From NCBI GenBank assembly GCA_002356215.1, contig AP017959.1:2124195-2188194 (forward strand): DNA of 64,000 nucleotides, in the 5' to 3' direction. A model generated the notes under the pieces. That model was not told the DNA's origin. It did no database searches and saw only the letters and a list, made by a program, of their open reading frames with translations. A program made the translations under genes and the position numbers. Source of the DNA: [Synechococcus] sp. NIES-970. Lineage in GTDB: Bacteria > Cyanobacteriota > Cyanobacteriia > Cyanobacteriales > MRBY01. This document shows positions 3,502-33,033 of this stretch, piece by piece. The stretch's first letter is position 1; each line of letters opens with the position of its first letter.

Positions 3502-3704
3502 AGGTATTATCTTGGGTCGGGATAACTGGGAGACAATAGTGTGGTGGCAGATAGGCGATCGCCTTTGAGGCAACACAGCTTGGGCAAAGATAACCTTTTT
3601 CTAGGGCAGTGCAGCATAACCATGCTTACAGCACAAGACGACCTTCTCAAGCACTCGGAACAAAGCCCGGGAAAGAGAGAACGTCGACAGAAAAAGAGTA
3701 TTGA

Positions 3705-4481
3705 TCAATGGAGGTTAAACAACTGGCAGGCATTGGCCGTAGTCTGGTGAGCAAGGGTTTCTAATGATGTTTCCCGCAATTCAGCAAGGTATTCTGCCAC
3801 ATGGCGGACGAAGGCTGGCTCGTTCCGTTTTCCCCGTTTAGGAACAGGGGCCAAGAAAGGGCAATCCGTTTCAATCAGCAGTCGGTCATCGGAAACTAAA
3901 CGGGCAGACTCTTTAATTTGTGCCGCATTTTTGAACGTGACGACTCCGCTGAAACTGACAAAAAAACCCAAGTCCAAAAACCAACCAGTCTCTTCGGGAG
4001 TACCACTCCAGCAATGCATCACACCACGGATCGGTTGCTGAGCTGCCTGGAATTCTTCGAGAATAGCCCTGAGTTCAGCTGCTGCTTCACGGCAGTGGAT
4101 AATGACTGGCAGATCAAGGGCCGCAGCGATCGCAAGTTGATTTCTGAGCACCTTTTCTTGATGTCGGTGATTATTTGCCTTAAAAAAATCTAGCCCCATT
4201 TCCCCGAGGGCGACAATGCGAGGATCGCTCTGGGCGTAGGCTTTGATTTCTGTCGCCATAGTTTCTGTCCACTTGTCTGCATCTAAGGGATGAAGACCGA
4301 CAGAAAACCGCAGCTCGGGAAATCGATCTGCCAGGGCTTGGATTGCAGCAAATTCTCTGGGCTCGACACAAGAATGTACGAGGTGGGCCACCCCCGCGGC
4401 ACGCCAGCGACTGGCGATCGCCTCAATGTCTTCTTGGAAAACATCGAAGTTAATGTGCACATGGGTATCAACAAGTTGCAT
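3705..4481 (-). CDS. TatD family metal-dependent hydrolase (DNase)
   Basis: The 258-aa protein is of standard length for TatD/YcfH-type metallohydrolases with an amidohydrolase TIM-barrel fold. The N-terminal metal motif DTHVHI (His7, His9) is present, as are [24 protein letters not shown] and the late [13 protein letters not shown] motif. Family members act as 3'-5' exonucleases or deoxyribonucleases and some process tRNA or peptide substrates, so the exact substrate is open. It sits between rpsT and rpoB on the same strand and may be co-transcribed with rpsT (82 bp gap). Confidence 0.9.
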
Positions 4482-17794: not shown

Positions 17795-18265
17795 TTAGTA
17801 GCGGTAGTGGGCAAAGGCCTTATTCGCTTCTGCCATCCGGTGGGTATCTTCCCGCTTCTTAATAGCACCGCCGGTTTCATTCGCTGCATCCATCAGCTCA
17901 TTGGCCAGCTTGATTGCCATGCTCTTGCCAGAACGCTGACGGGAGTAGTTGATCAACCAGCGCAGGGCCAGAGCGGTACCACGGCTCTGGCGAACTTCCA
18001 TGGGTACCTGGTAAGTGGCACCACCGACCCGACGGGCTTTTACTTCCACGAGGGGAGTGAGGTTACGGATTGCAGTCTCAAAGACTTCGATAGGATCGCT
18101 ACCAGTTCTTTCTTTGATGATGTCAAGGGCATCATAGACAATCCGTGCTGCCAAGGATTTTTTACCGCTCTTCATAACGCGGCGGATGGTCATACTAAGG
18201 AGGCGGTTGTTGTACACGGCATCGGGTGGAACAACGCGCTTTTTGGTAACTGAGCGACGAGACAT
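17795..18265 (-). CDS. rpsG: 30S ribosomal protein S7
   Basis: The 156-aa protein begins [20 protein letters not shown] and contains VNKVMKSGKK-like ([20 protein letters not shown]), [18 protein letters not shown] and the C-terminal [20 protein letters not shown] motifs of S7. S7 nucleates assembly of the 30S head. It is the second gene of the str operon, about 200 bp upstream of fusA. Confidence 0.98.
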
Positions 18266-18483
18266 ACTTTTCTATGCTTTACAGATAGAGGGTTTTCTTA
18301 GAAATTGGAGTGACTAGTCAAACTAGACACAATTTTTTTAATAGGGGCAGCAATTATAGAAGGGGGACGCTCCACGATTTTGTCGTGAGTTTCGGGAGGT
18401 TCCTGACAAGCTTTTATTCAGTTGATTTTAAGAAGTTTAAGGGAGGTCGGCGATCGCAACTCTTGCCAACAGCTCAGCCTTGT

Positions 18484-18864
18484 TTATTTTGCTTCTTTGG
18501 GGCGTTTTGCACCGTACTTAGAACGGCCCTGCTTACGGTCTTTGACACCGGTAGCATCAAGGGTTCCACGGACGATGTGATAACGAACACCAGGTAAATC
18601 TTTCACACGGCCGCCACGGATTAACACGACGGAGTGCTCTTGGAGATTGTGACCAATCCCAGGGATATAGGCAGTCACTTCAAAGCCAGAAGTCAATCGA
18701 ACACGGGCTACTTTCCGGAGAGCAGAGTTCGGCTTCTTCGGAGTAGTGGTGTAGACACGGGTGCAGACGCCACGACGCTGGGGGCATTGCTTCAGTGCGG
18801 GAGACTTCGTCTTTTTCTTGAGCTTGAAGCGCTCTGAACGAATAAGCTGTTGAATAGTTGGCAT
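18484..18864 (-). CDS. rpsL: 30S ribosomal protein S12
   Basis: The 126-aa protein starts [20 protein letters not shown] (ATG 18862-18864, preferred over an in-frame TTG two codons earlier). It has [20 protein letters not shown], the region around the streptomycin site, and [22 protein letters not shown]12 is a decoding-centre protein and heads the str operon here. Confidence 0.98.
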
Positions 18865-18946
18865 GGACAATTGCCCTACGCGGATGGATTGACGTAGGTC
18901 ATTAACATTGACAAATTACAATCTTAGTGACAAAGAATGATTACTG

Positions 18947-19273
18947 TCAAGGTTCTCTTTGAAAGGATTGGCCGCAATTGCAAGTTTTTGTGTGGCGAGA
19001 ATTTTTAAACCGGAAACCTCCCCCCATCAAATCTTCAGAATAATCAATACTGAGGTTTTCGAGTGGCCCGACATCTTGGGCAGATGTAAGGATATTAATA
19101 TTGCGGATATTTTGCTGGCGATCGCCTGGCTGAGGTTCAGACTCCAGAGAAAACTGATAAATGTAATCTAGACAACCACCTGGCTGGATAGTAATCCGGA
19201 GATAGCTATCTAGTTTTTGGCGGCTCCGCTGGATACGTTTGATTTCTTGGGCAGCAGTGGTGGTAATTTGCAT
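18947..19273 (-). CDS. HesB/IscA family iron-sulfur cluster assembly protein
   Basis: The 108-aa protein has the IscA/SufA/ErpA fold pattern: AAQEIKRI at the start, LRITIQPGGCLDYIYQF carrying the first cysteine, SIDYSEDLMGGGFRFKN and the terminal CNCGQSF with the cysteine pair. These A-type carriers bind iron or iron-sulfur clusters and pass them to target proteins. The cyanobacterial paralogues (IscA, SufA) cannot be separated by eye, so no symbol is given. Confidence 0.88.
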   Translation of the reverse strand: MQITTTAAQEIKRIQRSRQKLDSYLRITIQPGGCLDYIYQFSLESEPQPGDRQQNIRNINILTSAQDVGPLENLSIDYSEDLMGGGFRFKNSRHTKTCNCGQSFQREP

Positions 19274-19307
19274 CGTCTCAGAATATCAGGCCGGTAGATA
19301 GCAACGC

Positions 19308-19709
19308 TTACTGACGAGAGTAGTCATCTTGGAAGCGAATAATATCATCTTCTCCCAAATACTCGCCATTTTGCACTTCGATCAAGACTAAGGGGACAAC
19401 CCCAGGGTTATGGAGACGATGCTTAGTGCAAGCGGGAACATAGGTAGATTGATTCGGGGTTAAGAGTTCTGTTACATCTCCACATTCAACGTGGGCAGTG
19501 CCAGAGACAACAATCCAATGTTCGCTGCGGTGGTGGTGCATCTGGAGGCTGAGTCGGTGGCCCGGTTTAACCTCAATGCGTTTGATTTTATAGCCAGGGC
19601 CTTCATCCAGGATTGTAAATGTGCCCCAGGGACGGGAGTCGGTGGGGCACTGTTGACCCGGAAGGGCAGTTGGTGTCGGGGTGATAGTGGCTTGTTTTGT
19701 TAAGGTCAT
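19308..19709 (-). CDS. Cupin protein of the mannose-6-phosphate isomerase type II family
   Basis: The 133-aa protein is a single cupin domain equivalent to the C-terminal part of bifunctional mannose-1-phosphate guanylyltransferase/mannose-6-phosphate isomerases. Seen motifs are RPWGTFTILDEGPGYKIKRI, GHRLSLQMHHHRSEHWIVV with the metal-binding histidines, PACTKHRLHNPG and IEVQNGEYLGEDDIIRFQDDY. It would act in GDP-mannose or cell-surface sugar supply. The frame is open to an ATG at 19751. The internal ATG at 19709 (MTLTKQATITPTP) is preferred because related proteins start near here, but this is not certain. Confidence 0.8.
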   Translation of the reverse strand: MTLTKQATITPTPTALPGQQCPTDSRPWGTFTILDEGPGYKIKRIEVKPGHRLSLQMHHHRSEHWIVVSGTAHVECGDVTELLTPNQSTYVPACTKHRLHNPGVVPLVLIEVQNGEYLGEDDIIRFQDDYSRQ

Positions 19710-19757
19710 GGGCACTTTCAAACCGTAGAGAACAAGAAATTCGCCTTCCATTATGCG

Positions 19758-20234
19758 TCAGGGTTGACGATTGTGCCGAAACCAATTCTGGAGCAGTTGA
19801 CTGCACTCGACAGCGGCAATCCCGCCAATAACGGAAAAAGAATGATTGCTAAAGGTGGCATCAGAAAAATTTGTGATACTCCGCAAAACTCCAGTTTTTG
19901 GGTCATCAGCTCCGTAGACAACTTGTTTCAGACGGCAATGGATAATTGCTCCGGCGCACATTGGGCAGGGCTCGAGGGTGACATAGAGAGTACAGTCCTG
20001 GAGATGCCAATCTTGGCGCTGCTGGCTGGCGGCCCGAATCGCAAGCATTTCAGCATGGGCGGTGGGGTCTTTTATTTTTTCTTTGCGATTACCGCTCTGG
20101 GCCAGTAGGTGATTGTGGCCATCGACAATAATTGCGCCGACGGGAATTTCCCCCGACTCTCCGGCGATTTTTGCGAGGGCGATCGCCTTTTGCATCCAGT
20201 AGTAGTGCCGTTGGTATTCTGCCCGGGTAATCAC
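19758..20234 (-). CDS. tadA: tRNA-specific adenosine deaminase TadA
   Basis: The 158-aa enzyme deaminates adenosine 34 of tRNA-Arg(ACG) to inosine. Zinc-site motifs are present: HAEMLAIRAA with the catalytic glutamate and PCPMCAGAIIHCR with the paired cysteines. A GTG start (20232-20234) overlaps the TGA of the glutaredoxin gene in a GTGA arrangement, indicating translational coupling in one transcript. Confidence 0.93.
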   Translation of the reverse strand: MITRAEYQRHYYWMQKAIALAKIAGESGEIPVGAIIVDGHNHLLAQSGNRKEKIKDPTAHAEMLAIRAASQQRQDWHLQDCTLYVTLEPCPMCAGAIIHCRLKQVVYGADDPKTGVLRSITNFSDATFSNHSFSVIGGIAAVECSQLLQNWFRHNRQP

Positions 20235-20536
20235 TGGTGTAGGAGTGTTTTGAGTTCACCTTTTTTATCCAGGTCAAACAGGTCGCTGCAACCACCGATA
20301 TGGGCATTGTTAATGAAAATTTGGGGGACAGTACGCTGACCCTTGGCCCGTTCTGCCATGGCGTTACGGGCTACCTCATCCCCATCAATTTTGTATTCGG
20401 TGAAATGTACGCCCTTGAAGAATAGGAGAATTTTGGCGGCGATACAGTAGGGACAGGTCTGCCAAGTATAAATTTCCACTTTTGCATTGATCCCATTGGC
20501 ACTCTTGCCGAATAACGGGTTTAACCAATCAAACAT
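20231..20536 (-). CDS. grxC: Glutaredoxin (GrxC type, CPYC)
   Basis: The 101-aa protein is a dithiol glutaredoxin with active site CPYC in YTWQTCPYCIAAKILL, the TVPQIFINN cis-proline loop and the GGCSDL glutathione-binding motif. It reduces disulfides and mixed disulfides using glutathione. An N-terminal stretch of about 18 residues precedes the domain. It is translated just ahead of tadA with a 4-base overlap. Confidence 0.93.
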   Translation of the reverse strand: MFDWLNPLFGKSANGINAKVEIYTWQTCPYCIAAKILLFFKGVHFTEYKIDGDEVARNAMAERAKGQRTVPQIFINNAHIGGCSDLFDLDKKGELKTLLHQ

Positions 20537-20848
20537 TTGCTAAAACTCCCCAGGGTTGCTGCTCTTAATTTTGTCTTGGATATTGTTGAACAACAATAGG
20601 GCGATCGCCATCAATGCCTGAAAAATAAGGGGCATTTTTGGGCGGGGCGACTCTATTTCAGGCGAAAAAATCCAGCAGAGCCCATAGGCTTAAGGTTAGA
20701 CTAAAATACCTGTAGCGTTGCTGCACCTTGGGATGCATATATCTGGACAACTTTAAGTGATTTGCATGATCGCCCAACTCATCCCCTCGTCCAGCCACAG
20801 CTCATTTGTTGATCAACCTTTTCTGAACACTCGCTAGACCATAATTTT
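20537..20848 (+). other. Intergenic region upstream of ahcY
   Basis: This 312-bp gap between divergent grxC and ahcY contains one HIP1 octamer and must hold both promoters. I see no clear terminator, tRNA or named riboswitch; an S-adenosylhomocysteine riboswitch was looked for and not found with confidence. Confidence 0.6.
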
Positions 20849-22225
20849 ATGAGCACTTCTACATTAACCCGTGATTATAAGGTCGCTGATATTAGCCTCG
20901 CCAGTTGGGGTCGTAAGGAAATTGCGATCGCCGAAGGCGAAATGCCCGCCCTCATGACCATCCGTAAAAAATACAGTGCGGACAAGCCCCTTGCTGGCGC
21001 GAAGATCATCGGCTGTATTCACATGACCATCCAGACCGCTGTGCTGATCGAAACCCTGGTTGAACTGGGCGCAGAAGTCCGTTGGTCATCCTGTAATATT
21101 TTCTCTACCCAAGACCACGCTGCAGCGGCGATCGCAGAAGCTGGAATCCCTGTTTTCGCCTGGAAAGGGGAAACTGAAGAAGAATACATGTGGTGTATTG
21201 AGCAAACCTGCCGCACACCTGCCGGTGAACTATGGGATGCCAACATGATTTTGGATGATGGCGGTGACCTCACGGGCTACATCCATGAAACTTACCCCGA
21301 AATGCTCACCAAAATTCATGGTGTTACTGAAGAAACCACCACTGGGGTCCATCGCCTCTACGAAATGCTCGAAAAGGGTGAATTAAAAATCCCCGCAATT
21401 AACGTCAACGACTCCGTAACCAAGGCGAAAAACGATAACAAGTACGGTTGTCGCCATAGCTTAAACGATGCCATTAAACGCGGTACAGATCACCTCCTTG
21501 CCGGGAAGAAAGCGCTGGTAATTGGCTATGGCGATGTGGGTAAAGGTTCCGCTGCCTCCCTCCGTCAGGAAGGGATGATCGTTAAAGTTACTGAAGTAGA
21601 TCCCATCTGCGCGATGCAGGCTTGCATGGATGGGTATGAAGTTGTTTCTCCCTACCTCAACGGCATTAATAATGGCCCGGAGAGTGTCAACAAGGATCTT
21701 TTGGCAAATACTGATCTTTTGGTGACAGCGACTGGCAACGTCAATGTTTGTGATGCCCATATGCTCGCTGCCCTGAAGCCTAGTGCAGTGGTATGCAACA
21801 TTGGTCACTTTGACAATGAAATTGACACCGCTTATATGCGTCAAAACTGGGAGTGGGAAGAAGTAAAACCCCAAGTCCATAAGGTTTATCGCAGTGATAA
21901 TCCCCAAGACTTTTTGATTCTCTTGGCTGAGGGTCGTTTGGTGAACCTTGGGAATGCGACCGGTCACCCTTCACGGATTATGGACGGTTCCTTTGCTAAC
22001 CAAGTTTTGGCGCAAATGTTCTTGTTTGAGCGTAAATTTGCGGACCAAAATCCTGCAACGCGTCAAATTACCGTTGAAGTGCTGCCCAAGCATCTGGACG
22101 AGGAAGTGGCTCGTTATATGGTTGAGGGTTTTGGCGGCGTAATTACTCAACTTACTAAAACCCAAGCGGACTACATCCATGTGCCTATGAATGGCCCCTT
22201 CAAAGGTGATAGCTATAAGTATTAA
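20849..22225 (+). CDS. ahcY: Adenosylhomocysteinase
   Basis: The 458-aa enzyme hydrolyses S-adenosylhomocysteine to adenosine and homocysteine in the activated methyl cycle. Visible blocks include [35 protein letters not shown], the catalytic region [28 protein letters not shown], the NAD-binding [12 protein letters not shown] and the C-terminal [10 protein letters not shown] with the conserved Lys and Tyr. It is a single-gene unit closed by the terminator at 22302-22342. Confidence 0.98.
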
Positions 22226-22301
22226 TCCTTGATGAATGCTTGATTGAACTTCGCTAATTTCAGAACGGTTTGATGGGGTTAATCCTGCATAAACCTGTTT
22301 T

Positions 22302-22342
22302 TTGCCTCTAATCGTTATCTAATGATCAGAGGCAATTTTTTT
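22302..22342 (+). terminator. Rho-independent terminator of ahcY
   Basis: TTGCCTCT (22302-22309) pairs with AGAGGCAA (22328-22335), and an inner ATC/GAT pairing extends the stem past one mismatch. A run of seven T (22336-22342) follows. It lies about 80 bp after the ahcY stop and its T run touches the end of the displaced dihydroorotase remnant. Confidence 0.85.
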
Positions 22343-22467
22343 ATAAGAAATGCGTGAATGACTTTGCTGGACAAGTGTTGGTCTCGCCAAGCAAGGGGAA
22401 TGGCTTTCGGGACAGTGGAAATTTTCACTTTTAACCTGTCTGTTTTGTTGGGATCAAACAGAATGAG
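22342..22467 (-). pseudogene. Displaced C-terminal fragment of a dihydroorotase homologue
   Basis: On the minus strand 42 codons read LILFDPNKTDRLKVK...WRDQHLSSKVIHAFLI. This aligns with the last 41 residues of the intact dihydroorotase homologue ending at 27432 (LILFDPHKT...WGQNLSGKVIKTFLV), with 19 identical positions and one gap. There is no start or N-terminal part. A TAG stops the frame three codons upstream (22474-22476), where the sequence changes to an antitoxin start. It is read as the ancestral 3' end of that gene, left next to ahcY when the island inserted. Confidence 0.8.
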
Positions 22468-22473
22468 GGATTC

Positions 22474-22539
22474 CTATCTTTTGCTGGTGTTGCGCTTCAA
22501 CTCGGTGAGGGAGAGGATATTTTGGGTAAAGTCAAGCAT
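22474..22539 (-). pseudogene. Truncated Phd/YefM-type antitoxin start
   Basis: From ATG 22537-22539 the minus strand encodes MLDFTQNILSLTELKRNTS followed by KR and a stop. This resembles the N-terminus of cyanobacterial Phd/YefM-family antitoxins, which continue with a DNA-binding and toxin-neutralising domain absent here. The gene is broken exactly where homology to the dihydroorotase remnant begins, and no toxin gene follows. The assignment is from remembered family sequence over 19 residues, so moderate confidence. Confidence 0.6.
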
Positions 22540-22935
22540 AAATTAAACACCCAATACTCATTGAAACTGTAATCAGTGTAATAAGCTCGGAGAGTTTGTC
22601 AGTGATCGCCCTTGATGGGTTCTAGCTAAAATGAACTGACCGTCACCATCGAACCATGGCTGTTTCTCCGAGGGTAGATAGACACAAGCATATTCTCCCC
22701 AAAATCCTGTTGATTCACTTGCTGAGTTGCTTCTAGATAACTTTTAAGGGTACTTTACACCGCATGTGGTGGAGGGGCAGCCTGATTCCCATTACCCTCC
22801 GTATCGCGGATAATCAATTCAGTACTCTAGGGGTAATGTCTTGAGACGAACCTCACATACCACATCTAATAAACTGGGTGGTGCAGATAGTGTCACAATA
22901 AGCTTTTAAATCTACATATTATTCCCATGGGAATT

Positions 22936-23038
22936 TTATACAGATTTTATCTGCATAACACGCTGTTTGTGGTGTTTATACGGAAATTTTCCATATAAAA
23001 ATAACAGAGGGGACATTATACGGAACTCGTCTGCATAA
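22936..23038. repeat. Three 23-bp palindromes at exact 40-bp period
   Basis: Units lie at 22936-22958, 22976-22998 and 23016-23038. Each has the form 9-bp half-site, 5 variable bases, 9-bp inverted half-site: TTATACAGA-N5-TCTGCATAA, TTATACGGA-N5-TCCATATAA and TTATACGGA-N5-TCTGCATAA. Both intervals are exactly 17 bp and unrelated to each other. A weak further half-match (ATCTACATAT) occurs at 22910-22919. The array lies 225 bp before the OLD nuclease start. Cooperative operator sites or a recombinase or replication-initiator binding array are possible readings. Confidence 0.8.
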
Positions 23039-23150
23039 TACATAGTTCTAGAGACAGCGAAATAAAGTTACTGATAGGGGATAATTAACTGTCGGGTTAG
23101 GTACATAATTGGTTTGAGATTGTGACGCTCTCTCTAGAACAAATCATTGT

Positions 23151-23214
23151 AACCGACCGCAAATAAAGCGCTATCATTTAGTAGCAAAGATTTTTGCGGC
23201 GGTTAAATTTAACC
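23151..23214 (+). promoter_or_regulatory. Bulged hairpin overlapping a 14-bp palindrome upstream of the OLD nuclease gene
   Basis: AACCGACCGCAAA (23151-23163) pairs with TTTGCGGCGGTT (23193-23204) with a single bulged A. The last GGTT is also the left end of the perfect palindrome GGTTAAATTTAACC (23201-23214), so the two foldings exclude each other. The structure ends about 50 nt before the GTG start and could be a leader switch or a protein site. The role is inference. Confidence 0.45.
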
Positions 23215-23224
23215 GTTATGTGTA
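23210..23224 (+). repeat. Left copy of a terminal-inverted-repeat-like sequence
   Basis: TAACCGTTATGTGTA here matches, inverted, TACATATAACGTTA at 26931-26944 (reverse complement TAACGTTATATGTA), with one base gap and one mismatch. The two copies closely bracket the OLD nuclease-UvrD gene pair. The repeat is short and AT-rich, so chance is possible. Confidence 0.35.
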
Positions 23225-23262
23225 AATCGTTATTGAAATAATCTAAGTAGTGAGATGAATCA

Positions 23263-24987
23263 GTGAATTTGCAAGATGTCAAGATTGAGAACTTCCGTGG
23301 TATCAGTTTTTTACACCTTCCCCTCGATAAACTGACAGTACTAATTGGTGAAAATAACACTGGTAAGTCAACTGTTTTAGAAGCTGTAAAGTTTGTTCTC
23401 AACCGCAGCCTTGGCAATCAACGTGGCAACCAGTTCACCGAGTATGATTTTCATCTCAGAGATGTTAACGTTACGCCACAAACTGCTCAGCCAATTCTAA
23501 TCACTCTACATTTTGCCGAAGAAAATCCGGATGAATGGCCTGATGCTATTATTCAGCAAATGAATGAAGTAATTCAGTTGGATTCTGTAGGACTCAATCA
23601 TATCTGGTTACAGGCAAAAGGCATTTTTAATCCTGATACTGTTTCATTTGAAACCAAGTGGGGTTTTCTCAATTCAAGCGAGGAAGAGTTGAGTTTGAGA
23701 AGCCTTACACCGATCAATCTTATTTCACGATTTGTTCCGCTTTTTTTCCTGTCGGCGTTACGTGATGCTTCTCAAGAGTTTGGACAGCGTGGTCAGTTCT
23801 GGAAAAGCTTCCTGAAGTCTATCCAGATTCCTGATGACGAGCGAGCACAGATTGAGGGAACACTTGAGGAAGTTAATACATCAGTTATCGATGCAAATAT
23901 TGGGTTAACACAAGTTATTCAAGAAATAGCTAAGCTAAAGGAGCTTGTTCCTTTGGCTTCTAATGATCCTGTTGTACTAGAAGCATTCCCAACCCGCATC
24001 TTTGATATGGTCGGCAAAATTCAGGTGTATCTAAAATCAACTTATGGAGCAAAGATCCCCCTCCATCGACATGGGGAAGGAACTCAGAGCCTTGCTGTAT
24101 TGATGCTTTTTCAAGCCTTTGTAGCTAGCAATCTAGCCGAAGCCTATACTCCTGAATCTAGCCCAATTCTCGCTTTGGAAGAACCAGAAGCGCATCTTCA
24201 TCCATCAGCTATTTGTTCACTTGGCTCATTTCTGAAGAATCTATCAGGAAAAATCCTTGTTTCTAGCCATTCTGGCGATTTGCTTTCACGGGTTCCAATT
24301 ACATCATTGCGTAGGTTATACAAAGTCAATGGAGCAACAAAGGTAGGACAAGTTCAGACTAATTTGTTGGATGCCAAGGAGATGCAGGCAATTGATTATA
24401 GTATTTGTCTAACAAAAGGCCAGTACCTCTTTTCACGTTGCTGGTTACTTGTGGAAGGTAAATCAGATTTTCATCTTATGCCGCTTCTTCTAGATATCAT
24501 GGGTTTTTCTCAAGATGAAGTTAGTCTATCAGTCCTTGAAATTAGCGAAGTCATTAACAAAGGTGAGCCGTTCATAAAGCTAGCAAAAGCACTTGGTATT
24601 CAATGGTTTATGATGGCAGATGGCGATAGTGCTGGAATGGATTATGTTAATCGCGCAGCAAATTACCTTGAAGCCAGTGACACTCTTGCTGATCGTGCCC
24701 GACAATTAACTCATGCCGATATCGAGCATGAATTTTGGCATAATGGTTATTCTAGCTTTATTACAAATATCGTGCCTTCTAATGTTCTACATCAAATTCA
24801 GACACGGACAGGAGGAAAGGCTGAAGAGAAAATCAAGGAGATAATTAAAACTGCTATCAAGCAGAAAGGAGGGAAGCCTGCTTTTGCACAAGCCTTAGCT
24901 CTAGAAATCCGAAATCAAGGTAAAACAACTATTCCTCAGACAATTCAAGATGTTATTACCCGTACTGTCCAATTAGCCAGAGGTTGA
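23263..24987 (+). CDS. OLD-family ATP-dependent nuclease with TOPRIM domain (Gabija GajA-like)
   Basis: The 574-aa protein has an N-terminal SMC/RecF-like AAA ATPase with Walker A GENNTGKST (residues 29-37), signature-like RHGEGTQSLAVL, Walker B ILALEEPEAHLHP and switch SSHSGD. A TOPRIM nuclease domain follows, with Glu398 in LLVEGKSD and Asp453/Asp455 in ADGDSAG. This is the class 2 OLD architecture of Gabija GajA, whose length is about the same. The start is GTG; a three-codon ATG reading frame (23255) overlaps it. The UvrD gene follows after 1 bp. In known systems GajA nicks DNA and is controlled by nucleotide levels; activity here is inferred. Codon use and base composition differ from neighbours. 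Confidence 0.88.
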   Translation: MNLQDVKIENFRGISFLHLPLDKLTVLIGENNTGKSTVLEAVKFVLNRSLGNQRGNQFTEYDFHLRDVNVTPQTAQPILITLHFAEENPDEWPDAIIQQMNEVIQLDSVGLNHIWLQAKGIFNPDTVSFETKWGFLNSSEEELSLRSLTPINLISRFVPLFFLSALRDASQEFGQRGQFWKSFLKSIQIPDDERAQIEGTLEEVNTSVIDANIGLTQVIQEIAKLKELVPLASNDPVVLEAFPTRIFDMVGKIQVYLKSTYGAKIPLHRHGEGTQSLAVLMLFQAFVASNLAEAYTPESSPILALEEPEAHLHPSAICSLGSFLKNLSGKILVSSHSGDLLSRVPITSLRRLYKVNGATKVGQVQTNLLDAKEMQAIDYSICLTKGQYLFSRCWLLVEGKSDFHLMPLLLDIMGFSQDEVSLSVLEISEVINKGEPFIKLAKALGIQWFMMADGDSAGMDYVNRAANYLEASDTLADRARQLTHADIEHEFWHNGYSSFITNIVPSNVLHQIQTRTGGKAEEKIKEIIKTAIKQKGGKPAFAQALALEIRNQGKTTIPQTIQDVITRTVQLARG

Positions 24988-24988
24988 T

Positions 24989-26914
24989 ATGCTTAATTTA
25001 GCGTCACTCAATGAAAATCAGTGCGAGGCTGTGTTGTGGAACAAAGGAGCGCTACTGGTCTTAGCAGGGCCTGGTTCTGGCAAAACAAGAGTTCTTACCT
25101 GTCGCATTGCACACATATTGGAACAATCAGAAGGTCAACATTTTCGTATTTTGGCTCTTACTTTTACTAATAAGGCTGCCGCAGAAATGCGGAGCAGAGT
25201 GCAGGAACTAGTTCCAAAAGAACTTAGCAGGGTACGGCTTACAACGTTCCATTCTTTCGCTGCTGAACTTCTCCAGCAGCATGGCAACCATCTCAATTTT
25301 CGCCCAGACTTCCAAATACTTTCAAACAATGCTGATAGAGAAGCCCTTCTAGATGATGTATTAAGGCAACTCCGAAAAAACCTTGCCTATTCTCTGCCAG
25401 TCCATTTTAAAGCAGCCCAACTTCTCCCTGCTGTGACAAGACTTCTTGAAAAATGTGTTCCGATAGATCAGGCAGAAGAAATTCTTCAACAATCCAACGT
25501 GGAAAATGCTGCTCTTCTATCTAAGGTGTATGCAGATTATAGAAACGCACTTCGCAAAAACAATTCTCTCGATTTTCCAAGTTTGATAGCTGAAGCGTTC
25601 GATTTATTAACAAAGTATCCGTTCTTGGTTAAACACATACGCAAAGTTTACAAGCACATTCTTGTCGATGAATTTCAAGATACGAATAATACTCAGTATC
25701 AAATTCTATCATTGCTCGTATGCCCAGATCCTTCAACACTGTTTGTTGTAGCTGATGACGATCAAATTATTTATCAATGGAATGGAGCAAATCCTAAAAG
25801 GATTCAGGCATTGCGTGATGACTTTGGGGTTACTGAGTTACAACTTCCAGAAAACTACCGTTGTCCGCCTCTTATCATTGAATTAGCTAATTCTCTAATT
25901 GAAAAAAATCTCGGTCGATCAGCAGGGAAAAAACCGCTGAAGGCAGTCAAGCAGGGAGAAAGCGTAGAAGTTGTACGTGTTTTTAGTTTTGCTACTTTTG
26001 AAAAGGAAATTGAATGGATCGTACAGGATATCGCTCAAAGGGAACCTGAAGACCGAACAAACTGTGCTGTTCTTGCACGAACGAAAAAGCTCTTGGAGCA
26101 GGCAGGATCTAAACTTGCGGAAGCAGGTATTCCTGTTTACTTTGCAGCCAACAAGGATGAATTTAAGAGTGCTCCACTGAGAATGTTACATGCCATTCTT
26201 CGGCTAGTTAACTCCAAGGAAGATAAGCAGTCACTTGCAAGGCTCTCAAAGGCTTTTTATGAACTTGAAGGTATCAGAATTGAATTGTCTCCAGTCCTTG
26301 CGCGTGCATCTGCTGATGGCAAGGATTTGCTTCGCTCTTGGCTTGATGAGGTAAAGCTCCGAGATGCTTTGGAGGAAAAGACACGAACACTTTTGGAAAC
26401 AGATATTAAGTCACTGCTTACATCTCTAAACTATCGTAATTTTTCAGAAAAACTTTTAGATTGGGCGGTAGAGTCTTCGCCTGAATCTAACCAAGATGAA
26501 GATGCCTTCAATGAGTTTGAAGAAGAGCGGGATGTTTGGCAACAAATTTTGAATGAAATAATGAAAAAATTTGAAGGTGAAGAAGTGAGTCTTCATCAAT
26601 TACTGCAAGAGCTTGATCTTACATCGAAGACACTGCCAAAACCGCCAGAGGCAATTCCTTGTTTCACTATCCATGCCTCAAAAGGCTTAGAGTTTGGACA
26701 TGTCTACCTCATTGGATTAGTAGAGGATCAGTTTCCCAGTTGGGCTGCTATTAAAAAAGGCGACAATTCTTTAGAAATGCAAGAAGAACGTCGAAATTGT
26801 TTTGTCGCTATTACACGTACTCAGGAAAGTTTGACGCTGACTTTTTCTGCCAAGATGTTTGGATGGCCAAAAAAGCCTTCTCGATTTTTAGCAGAAATGG
26901 GAGTAGAGCTATGA
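24989..26914 (+). CDS. UvrD/PcrA-type superfamily 1 helicase (partner of the OLD nuclease)
   Basis: The 641-aa helicase shows Q motif LNENQCEAV, Walker A AGPGSGKT (26-33), LTFTNKAAAEM, LTTFHSFAAELL, Walker B ILVDEFQDTN, DDDQIIYQWNGA, ENYRCPP, TIHASKGLEF and the late AITRTQESL arginine motif, so all SF1A motifs are present. It is longer than characterised GajB (about 500 aa) and shorter than housekeeping PcrA/UvrD (about 720-780 aa). It starts 1 bp after the OLD nuclease stop, implying co-translation and a joint function. OLD class 2 proteins are regularly paired with UvrD-like helicases in anti-phage defence. Confidence 0.9.
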   Translation: MLNLASLNENQCEAVLWNKGALLVLAGPGSGKTRVLTCRIAHILEQSEGQHFRILALTFTNKAAAEMRSRVQELVPKELSRVRLTTFHSFAAELLQQHGNHLNFRPDFQILSNNADREALLDDVLRQLRKNLAYSLPVHFKAAQLLPAVTRLLEKCVPIDQAEEILQQSNVENAALLSKVYADYRNALRKNNSLDFPSLIAEAFDLLTKYPFLVKHIRKVYKHILVDEFQDTNNTQYQILSLLVCPDPSTLFVVADDDQIIYQWNGANPKRIQALRDDFGVTELQLPENYRCPPLIIELANSLIEKNLGRSAGKKPLKAVKQGESVEVVRVFSFATFEKEIEWIVQDIAQREPEDRTNCAVLARTKKLLEQAGSKLAEAGIPVYFAANKDEFKSAPLRMLHAILRLVNSKEDKQSLARLSKAFYELEGIRIELSPVLARASADGKDLLRSWLDEVKLRDALEEKTRTLLETDIKSLLTSLNYRNFSEKLLDWAVESSPESNQDEDAFNEFEEERDVWQQILNEIMKKFEGEEVSLHQLLQELDLTSKTLPKPPEAIPCFTIHASKGLEFGHVYLIGLVEDQFPSWAAIKKGDNSLEMQEERRNCFVAITRTQESLTLTFSAKMFGWPKKPSRFLAEMGVEL

Positions 26915-26930
26915 GAACTCTTTAAGGTGC

Positions 26931-26944
26931 TACATATAACGTTA
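26931..26944 (-). repeat. Right copy of the terminal-inverted-repeat-like sequence
   Basis: TACATATAACGTTA lies 17 bp after the UvrD-type gene and is the imperfect inverse of 23210-23224. No target-site duplication is recognisable outside the pair. Confidence 0.35.
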
Positions 26945-26959
26945 GGCTTTCGTATACTA

Positions 26960-26978
26960 ATCGCCGTCCCATCTCTGC
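26960..26978 (+). repeat. Direct repeat, copy 1
   Basis: ATCGCCGTCCCATCTCTGC recurs at 27401-27419 with one mismatch. The two copies bracket the small orphan gene at 27098-27358. Confidence 0.6.
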
Positions 26979-27097
26979 TCCCCTGAAGTTCCGTGACCTT
27001 GATCTGTAATCTGTAAATCTCCGATGGCGATCGCCTGTTCATACTTGCACCCAAAACCTTGGGATATGATGAATGAGATGTAAGAGCGAGTTTAGTT

Positions 27098-27358
27098 ATG
27101 TCTACCCATCCCCCTGTGACCGCCCCCTTCTCTCTTGCCCAATTACAACAAGACATCGCTTCTCTTTCACCCGATGCCCAACAAATTATTTTTGATCTTG
27201 TTCATCTACTGAAAAACAAAACAACATCTTCAGAAGATTCTGCTACAGTTCAAAATACGATGTCAGAATGGTCAGACTTTATTGGTTGTGGGGAAGCAGA
27301 ATCAGATTTATCTCGTCATTACAAAACCTATCTAATCCAAAATTTACTGATGCTTTAA
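27098..27358 (+). CDS. Small antitoxin-like protein without toxin partner
   Basis: The 86-aa product reads SLAQLQQDIASLSPDAQQIIFDLVHLL then EWSDFIGCGEAESDLSRHYKTYL. A helical segment with SLSPDAQQ followed by a C-terminal toxin-binding-like tail is common in small cyanobacterial antitoxins paired with PIN-domain toxins. No toxin gene follows. The C-terminus appears shortened (ending IQNLLML) and the frame runs out at a TAA before the pyrC-like gene. The family assignment is tentative and the gene may be a relic. It is flanked by the 19-bp direct repeats. Confidence 0.5.
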   Translation: MSTHPPVTAPFSLAQLQQDIASLSPDAQQIIFDLVHLLKNKTTSSEDSATVQNTMSEWSDFIGCGEAESDLSRHYKTYLIQNLLML

Positions 27359-27400
27359 GACACTCTGAGAATTATTATGGTTTTACTCAACAGGGAAGCG

Positions 27401-27419
27401 ATCGCCGTCCCATGTCTGC
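27401..27419 (+). repeat. Direct repeat, copy 2
   Basis: ATCGCCGTCCCATGTCTGC, one mismatch from 26960-26978. It ends 13 bp before the stop codon of the dihydroorotase homologue. Confidence 0.6.
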
Positions 27420-27431
27420 CACCTCACTTTT

Positions 27432-28697
27432 TTAGACAAGAAATGTTTTGATTACTTTGCCAGACAAATTTTGTCCCCACCAAGGAGTATTACTTTGGGG
27501 GCAATGGAGATTCTTGGCGTTTACTTGCCATGTTTTGTGGGGATCGAACAGGATTAGGGGCTGGGAATTTTCAGGAGCGATCACCTGGACTTCATTGCCT
27601 AAACATTTTTGCGGATTACTGCTCAGGGTTTGCCAGAGTTGGAGCGGTTGCCAATCTTGGGAGACGACAAAATTTTGCCAGAGGATTGGCAGAGCAATTT
27701 CTAGACCAATTACCCCGGTCGGTGCTTCGGCAAAGCTGACAGTTTTTTCTTCGTAAAGATAGGGTTGATGATCAATGGCGATCGCCTCAATTACACCATT
27801 TTTGACACCTTCAATTAAGGCTTGTTGATCTTCCGGATTACCGAGGGGCGGATCGAGCCGCAAATTGGGATCGTAGGTGCTGAGGGCTTTAGTGTTCCAG
27901 AGCAAATGCATCCATGACACGCTAGCCGTAATCGGTAAACCGCGCTCCTTTGCAGCAGCGATCAGTTCTATACCCCGGGCGGTGGAAATACGCATCAGAT
28001 GGACAGGGGTTTTCAGTTCAGCTACTAGTTCACAGATAGCGGCGATCGCCGTGGTTTCGACGGAGGCTAATTCTTCAACGAGTCCGTAAGCTAAACTGAC
28101 TTTGCCGTAGCGGGCAGTGCCCCCATTATGGAGCGCTAAATTTTTCGGGTAGAGGGCGATCGCCCGTTGGTAGGGCCGGAGATATTCCAGGGTGCGGCGC
28201 AACAGGAGCCAGTTATTGAGGGCGCGACCATCGCTAAAGCCAGCAATCTTTGCCGTCGCTAATTCTCCCAATTCTGTGAGGGCCTCTCCTTGGCATTTTT
28301 TTGTGAGGGCGGCCCAGGGTAAAAAATTTGGTTTGGGGCTGGGCAGTTGGTTAATCCGTTGTTGAAAGCTTTGCAGTTGCCCAAAATTATCAAGGGCGGG
28401 TTGGGTGTCCGAGAGAATGCCCACCTGGGTGAAGCCCCCGGCCAACGCACCTTGGGCCAACTGTTCTAGGGTTTCGCGAGACTCATGACCGGGTTCGCTG
28501 CTGTGGCTGTAGAGATCGACCAAACCAGGCGCCAGAATCAGATCTTCTGCCTCGATACTTTCCACCTCGGCGGGTAGGTCGGTCAGTTGGGGGGCGATCG
28601 CCTGGACTTGACCTTCCCTAAGCCAAACATCCTGACGATGATCCAGATTGGCCACGGGATCTAATACCCGCACCTGCCGTAAAACCACGTTATTCAT
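27432..28697 (-). CDS. Dihydroorotase homologue with degenerate active site
   Basis: The 421-aa protein (ATG 28695-28697 preferred over a GTG five codons upstream) is a full-length amidohydrolase of the type I dihydroorotase family: ILAPGLVDLYSHSSEPGHESRETL, GGFTQVG, ARGIELIAAAKERGLPITA and AIAIDHQPYL. The metal motif normally DxHxHxREPG reads DLYSHSSEPG, so the first His is Tyr63 and the Arg is Ser. The usual PHH motif reads WMH. It is likely a non-catalytic, PyrX-like paralogue that may bind aspartate carbamoyltransferase, as known elsewhere. Its 3' end has a second, displaced copy at 22342-22467. Confidence 0.85.
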   Translation of the reverse strand: MNNVVLRQVRVLDPVANLDHRQDVWLREGQVQAIAPQLTDLPAEVESIEAEDLILAPGLVDLYSHSSEPGHESRETLEQLAQGALAGGFTQVGILSDTQPALDNFGQLQSFQQRINQLPSPKPNFLPWAALTKKCQGEALTELGELATAKIAGFSDGRALNNWLLLRRTLEYLRPYQRAIALYPKNLALHNGGTARYGKVSLAYGLVEELASVETTAIAAICELVAELKTPVHLMRISTARGIELIAAAKERGLPITASVSWMHLLWNTKALSTYDPNLRLDPPLGNPEDQQALIEGVKNGVIEAIAIDHQPYLYEEKTVSFAEAPTGVIGLEIALPILWQNFVVSQDWQPLQLWQTLSSNPQKCLGNEVQVIAPENSQPLILFDPHKTWQVNAKNLHCPQSNTPWWGQNLSGKVIKTFLV

Positions 28698-28862
28698 TGC
28701 CGCACTTGCCACCGCAATATTCCCCTTCGCGAAAATCCGTCCCCCATTCTACTGTCTCTGTCTCAAATCCCCTTGGGTTTTGGGAAATTCTGCAAGATTT
28801 AACCCAAAAGGCGATCGCCTGATTATGATCATTTTGTGGTGAATTTTGGAGTGAATCAGAAA

Positions 28863-29459
28863 ATGAGCGCATTACGGGTTGGCATTGCAGGGCCGGTGGG
28901 ATCAGGGAAAACAGCCCTCCTTGATGCCCTTTGTAAGTCTCTACGGGAGCACTATGCGATCGCCGTGGTCACCAATGACATCTACACCAAAGAAGACGCC
29001 CAATTTCTCACCCGCTCCGGGGCACTCCCCGCCGAACGCATCATGGGGGTGGAAACGGGGGGCTGTCCCCACACGGCGATCCGCGAAGATGCTTCCTTAA
29101 ATTTGGCGGCGATCGCTGAACTCGAAGAAAAATTTCAACCTTTAACCCTGATGTTTGTTGAGAGTGGCGGTGATAATTTGGCCGCCACCTTTAGCCCGGA
29201 ACTAGTCGATTTAACAATCTATGTCATTGATGTGGCTGCCGGCGATAAAATTCCCCGTAAAGGTGGCCCCGGCATTACTAAATCTGATCTGTTGGTAATT
29301 AACAAAATCGACCTTGCCCCAGCAGTGGGCGCAGATTTAGACGTGATGGACCGAGACGCAAAAAAAATGCGCGGCGACAAGCCCTTTATTTTTACCAATC
29401 TCAAAACTCAGGAAGGTTTAGATGGTGTGATTGATTTTGTCGAAAAACACATTGTTTGA
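28863..29459 (+). CDS. ureG: Urease accessory GTPase UreG
   Basis: The 198-aa protein is a SIMIBI-class GTPase that drives nickel insertion into urease. P-loop [29 protein letters not shown], the [15 protein letters not shown] metal-binding CPH motif, FVESGGDNL and NKIDLAP are all intact. The ATG at 28863 ([11 protein letters not shown]) is chosen over an upstream in-frame start. No other urease gene is adjacent, so the ure genes are scattered in this genome. Confidence 0.97.
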
Positions 29460-29592
29460 GATTTTAAATCATCATGAAATTAGCCGGGATTCAAATTTTC
29501 TAGATCAGCTAAATCTTGCAATCTCCCCGAAGTATGTTTATTGATCTACAGATTTTCAAAGCTAATGACATTAATTGGCAAATCTTCAATTG

Positions 29593-29918
29593 TTATAGTT
29601 GTTTTTTTTGATAACAGCTTTTGAAATCAACGCCATTAGGTGTTGTCAACAAATCAATCCGACTAGGGAGATAACCCAACTGAATGATTTGACCAGGAGC
29701 TTGAAAATCTTCTGGCATAATCCCCAAGCTACCAAAACCAAATTCTTCTAAGACTGTAATTAAAAGCTGTGCATTTTCTGCACTCGTCTTAATCCAGATA
29801 TCAATATCTTTTATGTAACGGAGATGATCAGGGATTGCGTGTAATCCCCAATAAGCAAATATTCAACCCTATGCTTATTTAATAATTCGATAAATTCTCT
29901 GAAGTCTGGGGTGAGCAC
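29593..29918 (-). pseudogene. Frameshifted nucleotidyltransferase (MNT-like)
   Basis: A GTG at 29916-29918 opens VLTPDFREFIELLNKHRVEYLLIG. The frame then breaks where the family has a GGYAxxxHG-like catalytic motif. In another frame it continues DHLRYIKDIDIWIKTSAENA and on to SRIDLLTTPNGVDF before a stop at 29593-29595. The catalytic glycine motif is damaged, and the C-terminal third expected for these roughly 150-aa proteins is missing. It overlaps the small gene at 29875-30054, the normal arrangement of the pair. Confidence 0.75.
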
Positions 29919-30054
29919 TATTGTATTTGTGTTGGTGGTATTCTCGGCGGATCTGTTCGAGAGCTGCTATGCGTACTTCTGGAGATTGATTCTGCCAGTA
30001 AAGACAGTCTTTGGGTTGTTCAGTTTGCCTGAATTTACAAATTACTTTTTCCAT
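29875..30054 (-). CDS. Small conserved protein paired with a nucleotidyltransferase
   Basis: The 59-aa frame from ATG 30052-30054 starts MEKVICKFRQTEQPKDCLYW and contains SPEVRIAALEQIRREYH and a C-terminal PRLQRIYRIIK. Proteins of this shape lie directly upstream of, and overlap, MNT-like nucleotidyltransferases in many cyanobacteria, as here. The function is unknown; a toxin-antitoxin role has been suggested for such pairs but is not shown. The frame is intact although its partner is broken. Confidence 0.6.
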   Translation of the reverse strand: MEKVICKFRQTEQPKDCLYWQNQSPEVRIAALEQIRREYHQHKYNSAHPRLQRIYRIIK

Positions 30055-30171
30055 ACATTTTCAATGAAAACCATTAAATTTTAGGATGTTTTTTAAAAAT
30101 CTGATCACGATGCAGAGCCGATACAATAAGCATAAATAAACTTTTTTAGATTATCTTTGGAGCGATCGCCT

Positions 30172-31356
30172 GTGTTAGATGGAGAACAACTATCCTACAT
30201 TGTGTCCCAAGCTTGCCGCCATTATCAGTTTTCTAAAGCAATTCGGCAACGGGCCTGGGTAGAAATCGACCATCAAGCCCTAGCGGATAATATTCGCGCG
30301 CTTAAAGGAATTCTAGCCCCCCAAACGGCCTTGATGGCGGTGGTAAAAGCCGACGCCTATGGCCATGGCGCTATCAAAGTAGCCGAAACAGTCCTCCGGG
30401 CCGGGGCAACTTGGCTGGCGATCGCCACCCTCGGCGAAGGGGTCGAACTGCGCGAAGCAGGGATCACCGCGCCAATTTTAGTTTTAGGGGCGACTAATAC
30501 CACCGAAGAAATTGAGGCGATCGCCCACTGGGATTTGCAACCCACCCTCTGCACCCTAGCTCAAGTGAAATTATTTGACCAAACCGCCGCGAAGTTGGGC
30601 AAAATCTTACCGGTTCACCTCAAAATCGACACCGGGATGTCCCGCCTGGGAACCCGCTGGGAAGAAGCATTACCCTTTGTCAGCGCCGCCCACGCAGCCT
30701 CTAATTTGAACATCGCCAGCATCTATTCCCATTTCGCCACCGCCGACGAACCAGATCCCAGCACCCTCAATCAACAACACCAACGCTTCCAGGAGGCGAT
30801 CGCCAATTTTCAGCAGCATGGTATTCCCATCCCGAAATTACATATCAGCAACTCTGCCGCTACTCTTCATAGCACGGCTCTCCACTATGACCTAGTGCGC
30901 ATCGGCCTTTCAATTTATGGCGTTTATCCAGCCCCCCATCTCGCCGCGCAAGTTTCCCTCAGACCAGTCCTCCAAGTCAAAGCTCGGATCACTCAAATCA
31001 AGACCCTCCCCCCTAACACAGGCGTGAGCTATGGCCATCGCTTTAAAACAAGTGCCCCAACAAAAATTGCTGTGGTGGGTATTGGCTATGCCGATGGAGT
31101 TCCCCGCCGTCTGTCTAATCAGCTCAAAGTTTTGGTCAATGGCATCTTTGCGCCCCAGGTCGGCGCGATTACCATGGATCAAATCATGCTCGATGTCACC
31201 CACTTACCAGCGGTGCAGGTAGGGGATGTGGTGACCTTGATTGGCCATGAAACTAAAGAACAATTAACCGTAGACCAATGGGCCAACCAGCTGGGGACTA
31301 TTTCCTGGGAAATTCTCTGTGGTTTCAAGCACCGGCTGCCTCGCATTAACTTGTAA
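30172..31356 (+). CDS. alr: Alanine racemase
   Basis: The 394-aa PLP enzyme makes D-alanine for peptidoglycan. The PLP lysine lies in AVVKADAYGHG, the second catalytic tyrosine in NTGVSYGHRF, and RAWVEIDHQALADNIRAL, HLKIDTGMSRLGT, GYADGVPRRLSN and GAITMDQIMLDVT are typical. The frame opens with TTG at 30157, but GTG at 30172 follows a GGAG ribosome-binding sequence (30159-30162) at good spacing and is preferred. Confidence 0.95.
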   Translation: MLDGEQLSYIVSQACRHYQFSKAIRQRAWVEIDHQALADNIRALKGILAPQTALMAVVKADAYGHGAIKVAETVLRAGATWLAIATLGEGVELREAGITAPILVLGATNTTEEIEAIAHWDLQPTLCTLAQVKLFDQTAAKLGKILPVHLKIDTGMSRLGTRWEEALPFVSAAHAASNLNIASIYSHFATADEPDPSTLNQQHQRFQEAIANFQQHGIPIPKLHISNSAATLHSTALHYDLVRIGLSIYGVYPAPHLAAQVSLRPVLQVKARITQIKTLPPNTGVSYGHRFKTSAPTKIAVVGIGYADGVPRRLSNQLKVLVNGIFAPQVGAITMDQIMLDVTHLPAVQVGDVVTLIGHETKEQLTVDQWANQLGTISWEILCGFKHRLPRINL

Positions 31357-31380
31357 GGCTTGTGGCAACCCCGGTGAAAT

Positions 31381-33033
31381 TTACGGCTGCAATTCCTCAA
31401 GAATCATAAAACGCACATGGTTTAAGGCTAAATCCCCAAGGGAAACCTGTTCTTTGGGGACAACTTCACCATGGTGATACAGTTTTTCAAAGGGAACTCC
31501 TTTCGCCATCTCCGCATGATACCAAGCCAATCCCATGAAAAAGCGGGCTGGATAGGGCCCCCCTTCGCAGAGATCATCCGGGTTAGACTCCATTGGTAAC
31601 CAGCCATAACCGGGTACATAAAATTCCATCCACACATGGTTATAATCCGGCTGGAGAGGCATATTTCTCAGGTGGGCATGGGCCGGACATTTATAGCGGC
31701 CAACGGTGCGGCTGGCAATCTGATTGAGGCGAGAGAGCGCGAGTAAGACACCTAAATATTCTCCACAGGAACCAACACCCCGCCGGAGGGCAATATCTGG
31801 GGTATCAATGTGGGGTTTGATGCCATAGGAGAGGTGGTCATAAACATAGTTGCGGATGTTGTACATTTGCCGGAGCAGATTAGTCTCAGTACCCACAGCG
31901 TCTTCCGCTGCCCGCTGGATAATCTCCGTTTCCATGGCGAGGTTTTCGTTGTCTACCAAATATTGCCCCTGCATCACCTCGGAGAGGGGGGGCAGATTTT
32001 CACAGTCCCTGGGGGTGAATTGATATTTGATGCTCCACACCTTGAGGATTGCTCGCCAGCCGAAAATATAGCGTTGTTGTTCATTGAGTTGGTCGAATTT
32101 AAAGACCGCTATTTTTTGGCCGTCTTTTTCTTCGATGGTAAAGGGCAGGCCCACTGGCTCGATGCTGACCACCTGTTGGCGATCGGTTTCAGCGGGGAGG
32201 GCGATTTTCCATTCGAGGTTTTGCAACTCGACCGGATCGAGGGGGGAGAGTTCTTCCACATAGCTCATCTCCAGGAGAAAACCATTGGAGAGGGCATATT
32301 TTTTCTCGGGGTCATAGCGATAGTAGAGGGGATGCAGAAACGTGACATCTCGATACTGGAGTTCGTAGTTGGGGTCGGCATTGGGGTTATCGCGGATGTA
32401 GGGTTCCTGGGAGGCATAGGCCACATAGAGAATATCTGGGCTACCCTGGGAATTGGGGCAAAAAGCAAGGCCAGTGGGGGACTCAAAGGGAGTGAGGAGG
32501 GTGAATTTTACTTCGCCAGTGGCCCGCTCAAGGCAATAGACAGTTTGTTCGAGGCTGTCGGAAACCCAGAGTTCTTCGCCGCGAATCACTAAGTTTTCGA
32601 TACCGATGCCGGGCGCATAGAGACTGGTGATAGATTGGCGACTAACGGCGTCGTAGATAAAAATTTCGCCTTGTTTCTGACAAGAGATGTAGAGGCTGTT
32701 GCCGGAAATTGCCACCCCGTTGACGGTATCGGCAAAGCGGATGATCAGTTCGGGCTGCCATTGACCATCGGTGATAGAACATCTGTAGAGGCGATCGCCA
32801 CTGGTAAACCACAGGGTGTCATTTTGGATTGCGAGACTTGTAGCGCCGATAAACCCGGACCAGGTTTTGGGATTCATAATTTCGGTGGCATCAGTCTGGG
32901 GATTGATCCGCAGGAGATAGCCATTAATATTTTCGATTGCCCAGATATAGCCGTCATAGAAGGCCACACCGTGGAGGGCATAGGTTGAAATGGGGCGAAT
33001 GGTGCGGTGATTAACGGGGGTGGCAGTGCTCAA
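31381..33033 (-). CDS. Beta-propeller and transglutaminase-like protein
   Basis: The 550-aa product combines an N-terminal region of repeated beta-strand units (about 1-230, with motifs such as GVAFYDGYIWAIE, SLAIQNDTLWF and GVAISGNSLYISC) resembling a seven-bladed propeller, a linker domain, and a C-terminal transglutaminase core. The core has Cys in RRGVGSCGEYLG, His in YNHVWMEFYVPGYGWLPM and an acidic residue in ESNPDD, a complete papain-like triad. Start is TTG (33031-33033) with no better alternative nearby. No signal peptide is seen. The substrate is unknown; protease or amidase activity is possible. Confidence 0.82.
   Translation of the reverse strand: MSTATPVNHRTIRPISTYALHGVAFYDGYIWAIENINGYLLRINPQTDATEIMNPKTWSGFIGATSLAIQNDTLWFTSGDRLYRCSITDGQWQPELIIRFADTVNGVAISGNSLYISCQKQGEIFIYDAVSRQSITSLYAPGIGIENLVIRGEELWVSDSLEQTVYCLERATGEVKFTLLTPFESPTGLAFCPNSQGSPDILYVAYASQEPYIRDNPNADPNYELQYRDVTFLHPLYYRYDPEKKYALSNGFLLEMSYVEELSPLDPVELQNLEWKIALPAETDRQQVVSIEPVGLPFTIEEKDGQKIAVFKFDQLNEQQRYIFGWRAILKVWSIKYQFTPRDCENLPPLSEVMQGQYLVDNENLAMETEIIQRAAEDAVGTETNLLRQMYNIRNYVYDHLSYGIKPHIDTPDIALRRGVGSCGEYLGVLLALSRLNQIASRTVGRYKCPAHAHLRNMPLQPDYNHVWMEFYVPGYGWLPMESNPDDLCEGGPYPARFFMGLAWYHAEMAKGVPFEKLYHHGEVVPKEQVSLGDLALNHVRFMILEELQP

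Follow-up and report, generated by a model that had tools for sequence, protein, structure and literature searches.

Gene Organization of the ahcY-Dihydroorotase Interval

The window analyzed here is a stretch of 64,000 nt on contig AP017959.1 of [Synechococcus] sp. NIES-970 (genome size 3.12 Mb). At the locus under study, ahcY (20849-22225, plus strand; one open frame, its name taken from an earlier sequence-only reading rather than from a family search) stands to the left of a dihydroorotase gene (27432-28712, minus strand), which scored 643.7 bits with NF005614 against a cutoff of 456. Between the two genes lie, from left to right, genus-type intergenic sequence, a decayed second copy of the dihydroorotase 3' end (the relic), the truncated start of an antitoxin gene, the start side of a broken integron-integrase gene with an attI-like flank, an attC-like hairpin, the two genes of a Gabija system and a small ORF. 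The G+C content of this island is 40.8%, versus 48.8% for the window.

The interval was compared within the genus, as the sequence-only reading had proposed. The sample consisted of the own genome (G000) and five congeners (G001-G005); a scan of genome contigs returned two loci, both in genomes already sampled, and searching the whole family brought the number no higher than six. The ahcY protein is 92-95% identical in the five congeners and its position is unchanged. In all five, ahcY and the dihydroorotase gene lie tail to tail in an uninterrupted interval free of the island, the last matched codons of the two genes being 83, 83, 138, 124, and 124 bases apart, whereas the distance in the own genome is 5.2 kb. 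No match to gajA or gajB was detected in these five stretches at E ≤ 1e-3. In the window, the sequence adjoining ahcY (22226-22341), which includes a terminator-like hairpin recognized by eye, aligns up to the relic with the genus's own intergenic sequence. Since the site is empty in 5/5 congeners and native intergenic sequence stands beside the relic, we concluded that ∼5 kb have been inserted at the 3' end of the dihydroorotase gene. The ancestral tail-to-tail order and the entry of an island of this size, both first proposed from the letters alone, are thereby confirmed. No tRNA that could have served as attachment site was found in the window, and a search for Rfam-type attachment gave no match at gathering score in 18000-32000.

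The right part of the island contains an ORF of 86 aa (27098-27358, plus strand) that is antitoxin-like by eye only; it is 46% identical over 80 aa to sequence beside ureG in G005 and has no accepted family match in three libraries. A 19-base direct repeat (95%) was noted on both sides of this ORF, at 26960-26978 and 27401-27419.

A Complete Gabija Pair in the Island

PADLOC and domain searches assigned gajA (23263-24987, plus strand) to the Gabija OLD-type ATPase/TOPRIM nucleases and gajB (24989-26914, plus strand) to the UvrD-type helicases of the same system. The best PADLOC models were GajA (E = 3.3e-176) and GajB (E = 5.3e-253), with AAA and OLD-like TOPRIM domains in the first protein and UvrD domains in the second. 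Both genes are full length and adjacent, together occupy ∼3.65 kb, and follow the order of known Gabija systems; in the features tested the proteins do not differ from these systems, and what is unusual is the genomic setting alone. By these assignments the island carries a complete, predicted Gabija phage-defense pair, which may be expressed. Further gajA matches in the six genus genomes were weak and partial (E = 1.9e-7 in G004 and 6.5e-7 in the own genome). A plasmid source of gajB was rejected: four records were found at E ≤ 1e-60, all below 60% identity and none cyanobacterial. A cyanobacterial source was also rejected, with 2 of 386 genomes matching at E ≤ 1e-100, namely the own genome and G269 (52%). 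The matching stretch of G269 (L060) has an ORF, transposase-like by eye, ahead of a shortened gajA, and no integron-type integrase was seen by eye in its list of ORFs of at least 80 aa.

A Probable Integron Relic Beside the Gabija Pair

To the left of gajA, positions 22702-22819 and 22819-23047 match C1:531032-531770 of the own genome on the minus strand, at 71 and 78%. The matched region belongs to an intact integron-integrase gene, of which it comprises the start and the flank, so that the window holds a broken intI (start side at 22702-22918, minus strand, right limit approximate) with an attI-like flank (22919-23047, plus strand). Approximately 390 bases are missing between the two pieces of intI, and residues 164-202 of IntI match 22820-22704 (E = 1e-7) with one stop. 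Judged from its sequence, the window intI is a non-functional relic. The attI-like flank has copies at seven loci, one of them next to the intI of L053; the similarity among copies stops at or near GTT 23045-23047. Within the flank, at 22929-23041, three palindrome-like units of the form TTATAC(A/G)GA..TCTGCATAA were observed, the middle one less exact, which are possible protein-binding sites.

An attC-like hairpin with the right box GTTAAAT (23147-23208, plus strand) lies 55 bases before gajA. A strict attC scan of the window found nothing; nor did it recover the attC-like sites at L053 and L054, which we used as controls. The left-box consensus of attC sites is RYYYAAC, from which the candidate's TTGTAAC departs. 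Left box and scoring were loosened after the candidate had been seen, so its first rank among 105 window candidates under the loosened rule is not blind; it scored 14, and the control sites 12 and 14. The fold of 23147-23212 gave z values of -3.5 and -4.3, and the control sites fold less well (z -1.5 to -2.0). The hairpin is part of a unit (23095-23217) common to G012, at 79%; 3 of 291 genomes match this unit, one over 30 bases only. Behind gajB, TATAACGTTAGGC (26935-26947, plus strand) resembles the right end of an attC, its GTTAGGC box lying 26 bases after the gajB stop, and no hairpin accompanies it: the sequence does not fold (z +2.0 on both strands) and an attC is not recognizable there.

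The order and orientation of the parts, from the broken intI through the attI-like flank and the attC-like hairpin to gajAB and the GTTAGGC box, suggest that gajAB is a probable integron cassette and that the island is probably an immobilized integron holding Gabija. Because intI is truncated and no folded attC follows gajB, the pair is probably locked in place. The absence of a folded attC behind gajB is also what would be seen if gajAB were no cassette at all and lay beside an integron relic that predates it or came separately, a reading that we regard as rather doubtful. It agrees with the empty strict scan, which passed over the L053 and L054 sites as well, and with the length of gajA-gajB, large for a cassette when set against the small systems reported for integrons in the text of PMC12409362; the arrangement of the parts speaks against it.

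Integron Parts Elsewhere in the Genome and Genus

The intact integron-integrase gene of the own genome lies in L053 (contig C1, ∼528.1-532.2 kb) at 3164-4153 of that locus. It scored 469.8 bits with TIGR02249 (cutoff 265, E = 4.3e-141) and fell under the cutoff of the narrower NF011946. Positions 110-4153 of L053 hold this intI, an attI-like flank and two ORFs judged by eye as radical-SAM-like and protease-like, and an attC-like site (110-196) follows the final ORF visible in the array. L053 is apparently a complete small chromosomal integron. At E ≤ 1e-30, IntI matches, of which many are fragments, were found in 8 of 40 relatives, the own genome included; the five other genus genomes gave no match.

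Copies of the flank element were detected in the own genome at L054, L061, and weakly at L062, in G001 at L059, in G002 at L058 (twice) and in G005 at L063; in the loci whose ORFs were listed, the copies precede differing ORFs. L058, L059, and L061 represent one syntenic place in G002, G001, and G000, respectively, where differing single genes follow an attI-like element and have a recurring 33-43-base repeat behind them. In L063 (G005:C22, 2015-2348), a truncated intI start of 56 residues (82%) lies beside an attI-like element, and G005 has no intact IntI. L054 (contig C1, ∼2.575 Mb) contains a second relic at 2634-3436, composed of an attI-like flank ending in GTTAGGC, a 166-aa ORF and a 93-base attC-like site running from GCCTAAC to GTTAGGT. 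It stands behind a 1141-aa ORF that is glutamate-synthase-like by eye, and no duplicated end of the neighboring gene was found at L054.

A Decayed Copy of the Dihydroorotase Gene End Beside ahcY

On the minus strand from 22539, the window reads MLDFTQNILSLTELKRNTSKR, a stop and then ESLILFDPNKTDRLKVKISTVPKAIPLAWRDQHLSSKVIHAFLI, that is, an antitoxin start followed by a homologue of the dihydroorotase end. The sequence-only reading had the antitoxin-like start running directly into the gene-end fragment. The start spans 22539-22477 (21 residues), and the in-frame stop TAG at 22476-22474 separates it from the relic, so the two parts do not form one reading frame and no fusion ORF exists. The truncated start and its upstream sequence (22474-22565, minus strand) are probably of the Phd/YefM type and have a counterpart in G005: 16 of 25 residues agree with a 95-aa antitoxin of that genome (tblastn, E = 6e-6), and at the DNA level 22484-22565 matches over 82 bases at 84%. 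The full G005 antitoxin passes TIGR01552 (prevent-host-death antitoxins) with 28.6 bits (cutoff 20.8).

The relic (22342-22473, minus strand) agrees with the resident gene end at 89 of 130 aligned bases. Its local score of 71 compares with a maximum of 30 in 1000 Markov shuffles, which ruled out a chance match. The claim of a displaced dihydroorotase 3' end at this place holds, and the scar is a real second, decayed copy of that end. Its description as a 42-codon fragment is correct as to homology and needs amending as to frame, because one 1-base loss and one 4-base gain put the middle of the open stretch out of frame.

Of the seven ends the relic diverges most, with 63-68% DNA identity to the others (89/130, 86/130, 86/130, 84/127, and 82/130 bases for G001 to G005). 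A search of 388 genomes gave seven matches to it, the nearest six being the genus ends (E = 4e-10 to 9e-8) and the remaining one G358 at 2e-4, so both gene ends belong to the genus. The divergence of the relic, together with the uniformity of the resident gene, could mean that the relic itself is the foreign piece, donor DNA having placed a gene end of its own next to ahcY with the resident gene left untouched. Against this, the local alignment of the ahcY-side intergenic sequence to G003 continues unbroken into the relic, the relic thus running on into genus-type sequence and ahcY, and no identity break was seen along ahcY. Part of the divergence is moreover decay, as the indels indicate, and we consider a foreign relic improbable.

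Divergence of the Resident and Displaced Gene Ends

The sequence-only reading further held that the island had brought a replacement 3' end, now the working end at 27432-27560 (minus strand), and named a uniform phylogeny along the gene as evidence to the contrary. By DNA identity the resident end is ordinary: its last 42 codons are 79% identical to G001 (81% in the rest of the gene) and 79% to G003 (75% in the rest), and the resident gene is as near to G003 as to G001 also in one of nine other full 42-codon windows (codons 217-258). In protein, the tail is less like G001 (74% identity) than is the rest (89%) or the adjoining window (81%); the tail drops between G001 and G003 too (76 versus 80% in the rest). 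For the six working genes, trees of tail and body agree in unrooted topology and give no topological sign of chimerism. The branch that unites G000 with G001/G002 has a length of 0.227 and a bootstrap of 100 in the body, but in the tail it is short (0.068) and weak (bootstrap 69). Neither windowed identity nor the tail and body trees revealed a breakpoint or crossover in the dihydroorotase gene. When the relic was included, the AU test rejected none of seven trees (six distinct unrooted trees; P = 0.09 to 0.84).

The shared topology and the 79 versus 81% identity to G001 are equally expected if the insertion, by template switching or a long target duplication, had copied the gene's own end within the lineage, with the resident end inherited vertically and the left copy decaying without selection. 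The best-scoring tail tree agrees with such a duplication in pairing the relic with the resident end (bootstrap 71), with a relic branch of 0.42 versus 0.10. The positions at which the two ends differ point the other way. The 31 differences in 41 codons fall 12, 2, and 17 on first, second, and third positions, a spread that is uneven at P = 9e-5 (hypergeometric, versus even spread). Among bases that are fixed in all six working ends, 7 of 26 first, 0 of 33 second, and 2 of 8 third positions are changed in the relic (Fisher P = 0.002). A fresh duplicate that decays freely should be hit at second positions as well, so this pattern counts against duplication within the lineage; it would fit two ends that diverged while both were functional, one falling silent only later. 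G001 and G002 share a base that differs from the resident end at 25 sites; the relic has the shared base at 11 of these, the resident base at 10 and neither at 4, which also argues against a simple copy. Of the 11 congener-type sites, 10 fall in the first part of the alignment, and 8 of the 10 resident-type sites fall in the last part. We therefore regard in-lineage duplication as an unlikely origin, though one to be taken seriously. Replacement of the resident end by that of a congener is plausible from the codon-position pattern, the lower protein identity to G001 and the weak tail branch; with ordinary DNA identity, one topology and no tree rejected by the AU test, it is not demonstrated.

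Discussion

The earlier reading was right about gene order, insertion and relic, went further than the data on the replacement end, and missed what the island is, namely a Gabija pair with an integron relic. We lean toward a history in which a derelict-integron segment with Gabija was joined into the gene end, most likely on congener DNA that carried the gene's 3' part. In the ancestor, ahcY and the dihydroorotase gene would have stood tail to tail. A segment of ∼5 kb (antitoxin start, broken intI, attI-like flank, attC-like site, gajA-gajB and the small ORF) would then have been joined into the last ∼42 codons, most likely on DNA of a congener in which a derelict integron adjoined the dihydroorotase end. 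On the right side, homologous exchange within the gene may have kept a complete working end; on the left side, illegitimate joining would have severed the old end, which was left beside the ahcY terminator and decayed. Integron integrases are not known to bring replacement ends for genes. Natural transformation is known from Picosynechococcus strains, PCC 7002 being one. Against this history, the resident end has no topological foreignness and its DNA identity is ordinary, and in the best tree relic and resident end are grouped together, as expected from a simple duplication. No donor genome for the island was found. One-sided events of homology-facilitated illegitimate recombination have been described (PMC3240628). 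They would produce one homologous and one non-homologous joint and leave the end of the anchor gene duplicated in truncated form. A duplicate gene end is present here, as such an event would leave it, with no breakpoint found in the gene.

Phage-defense cassettes are known in chromosomal and mobile integrons (Darracq et al.; Kieffer et al., 2025; both via PMC12409362), where defense systems tend to be small according to the text of PMC12409362, and integrons in Cyanobacteria are on record (PMC8618304, PMC8352920). Like the defense-cassette integrons as presented in PMC12409362, the window has an integron-integrase gene, an attI-like flank and an attC-like site beside a defense system; it differs from them by the truncated intI, the unrecognizable downstream attC, the single full-size two-gene system and the cyanobacterial host. 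The word Gabija does not occur in the main text of PMC12409362, and among the openly licensed papers listed, judged by title and abstract opening, none describes Gabija in a cyanobacterial integron.

As a tentative proposal, which we put forward as possible rather than probable, a full-size Gabija system would have been a cassette of a cyanobacterial chromosomal integron, moved between lineages of the genus on DNA with a dihydroorotase end and become fixed upon collapse of the integrase and attC, in a genus that would repeatedly lose intI and keep single captured genes at orphan attI-like sites. Because the two gene ends bracket the insertion and the empty site is known from five congeners, arrival route and relative age can be tested in further strains. 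If gajAB came as a cassette, a cyanobacterial integron can carry a complete two-gene defense system, which can afterwards be domesticated through loss of the integrase. Scar and island together would be a readable record of how defense genes entered the chromosome.
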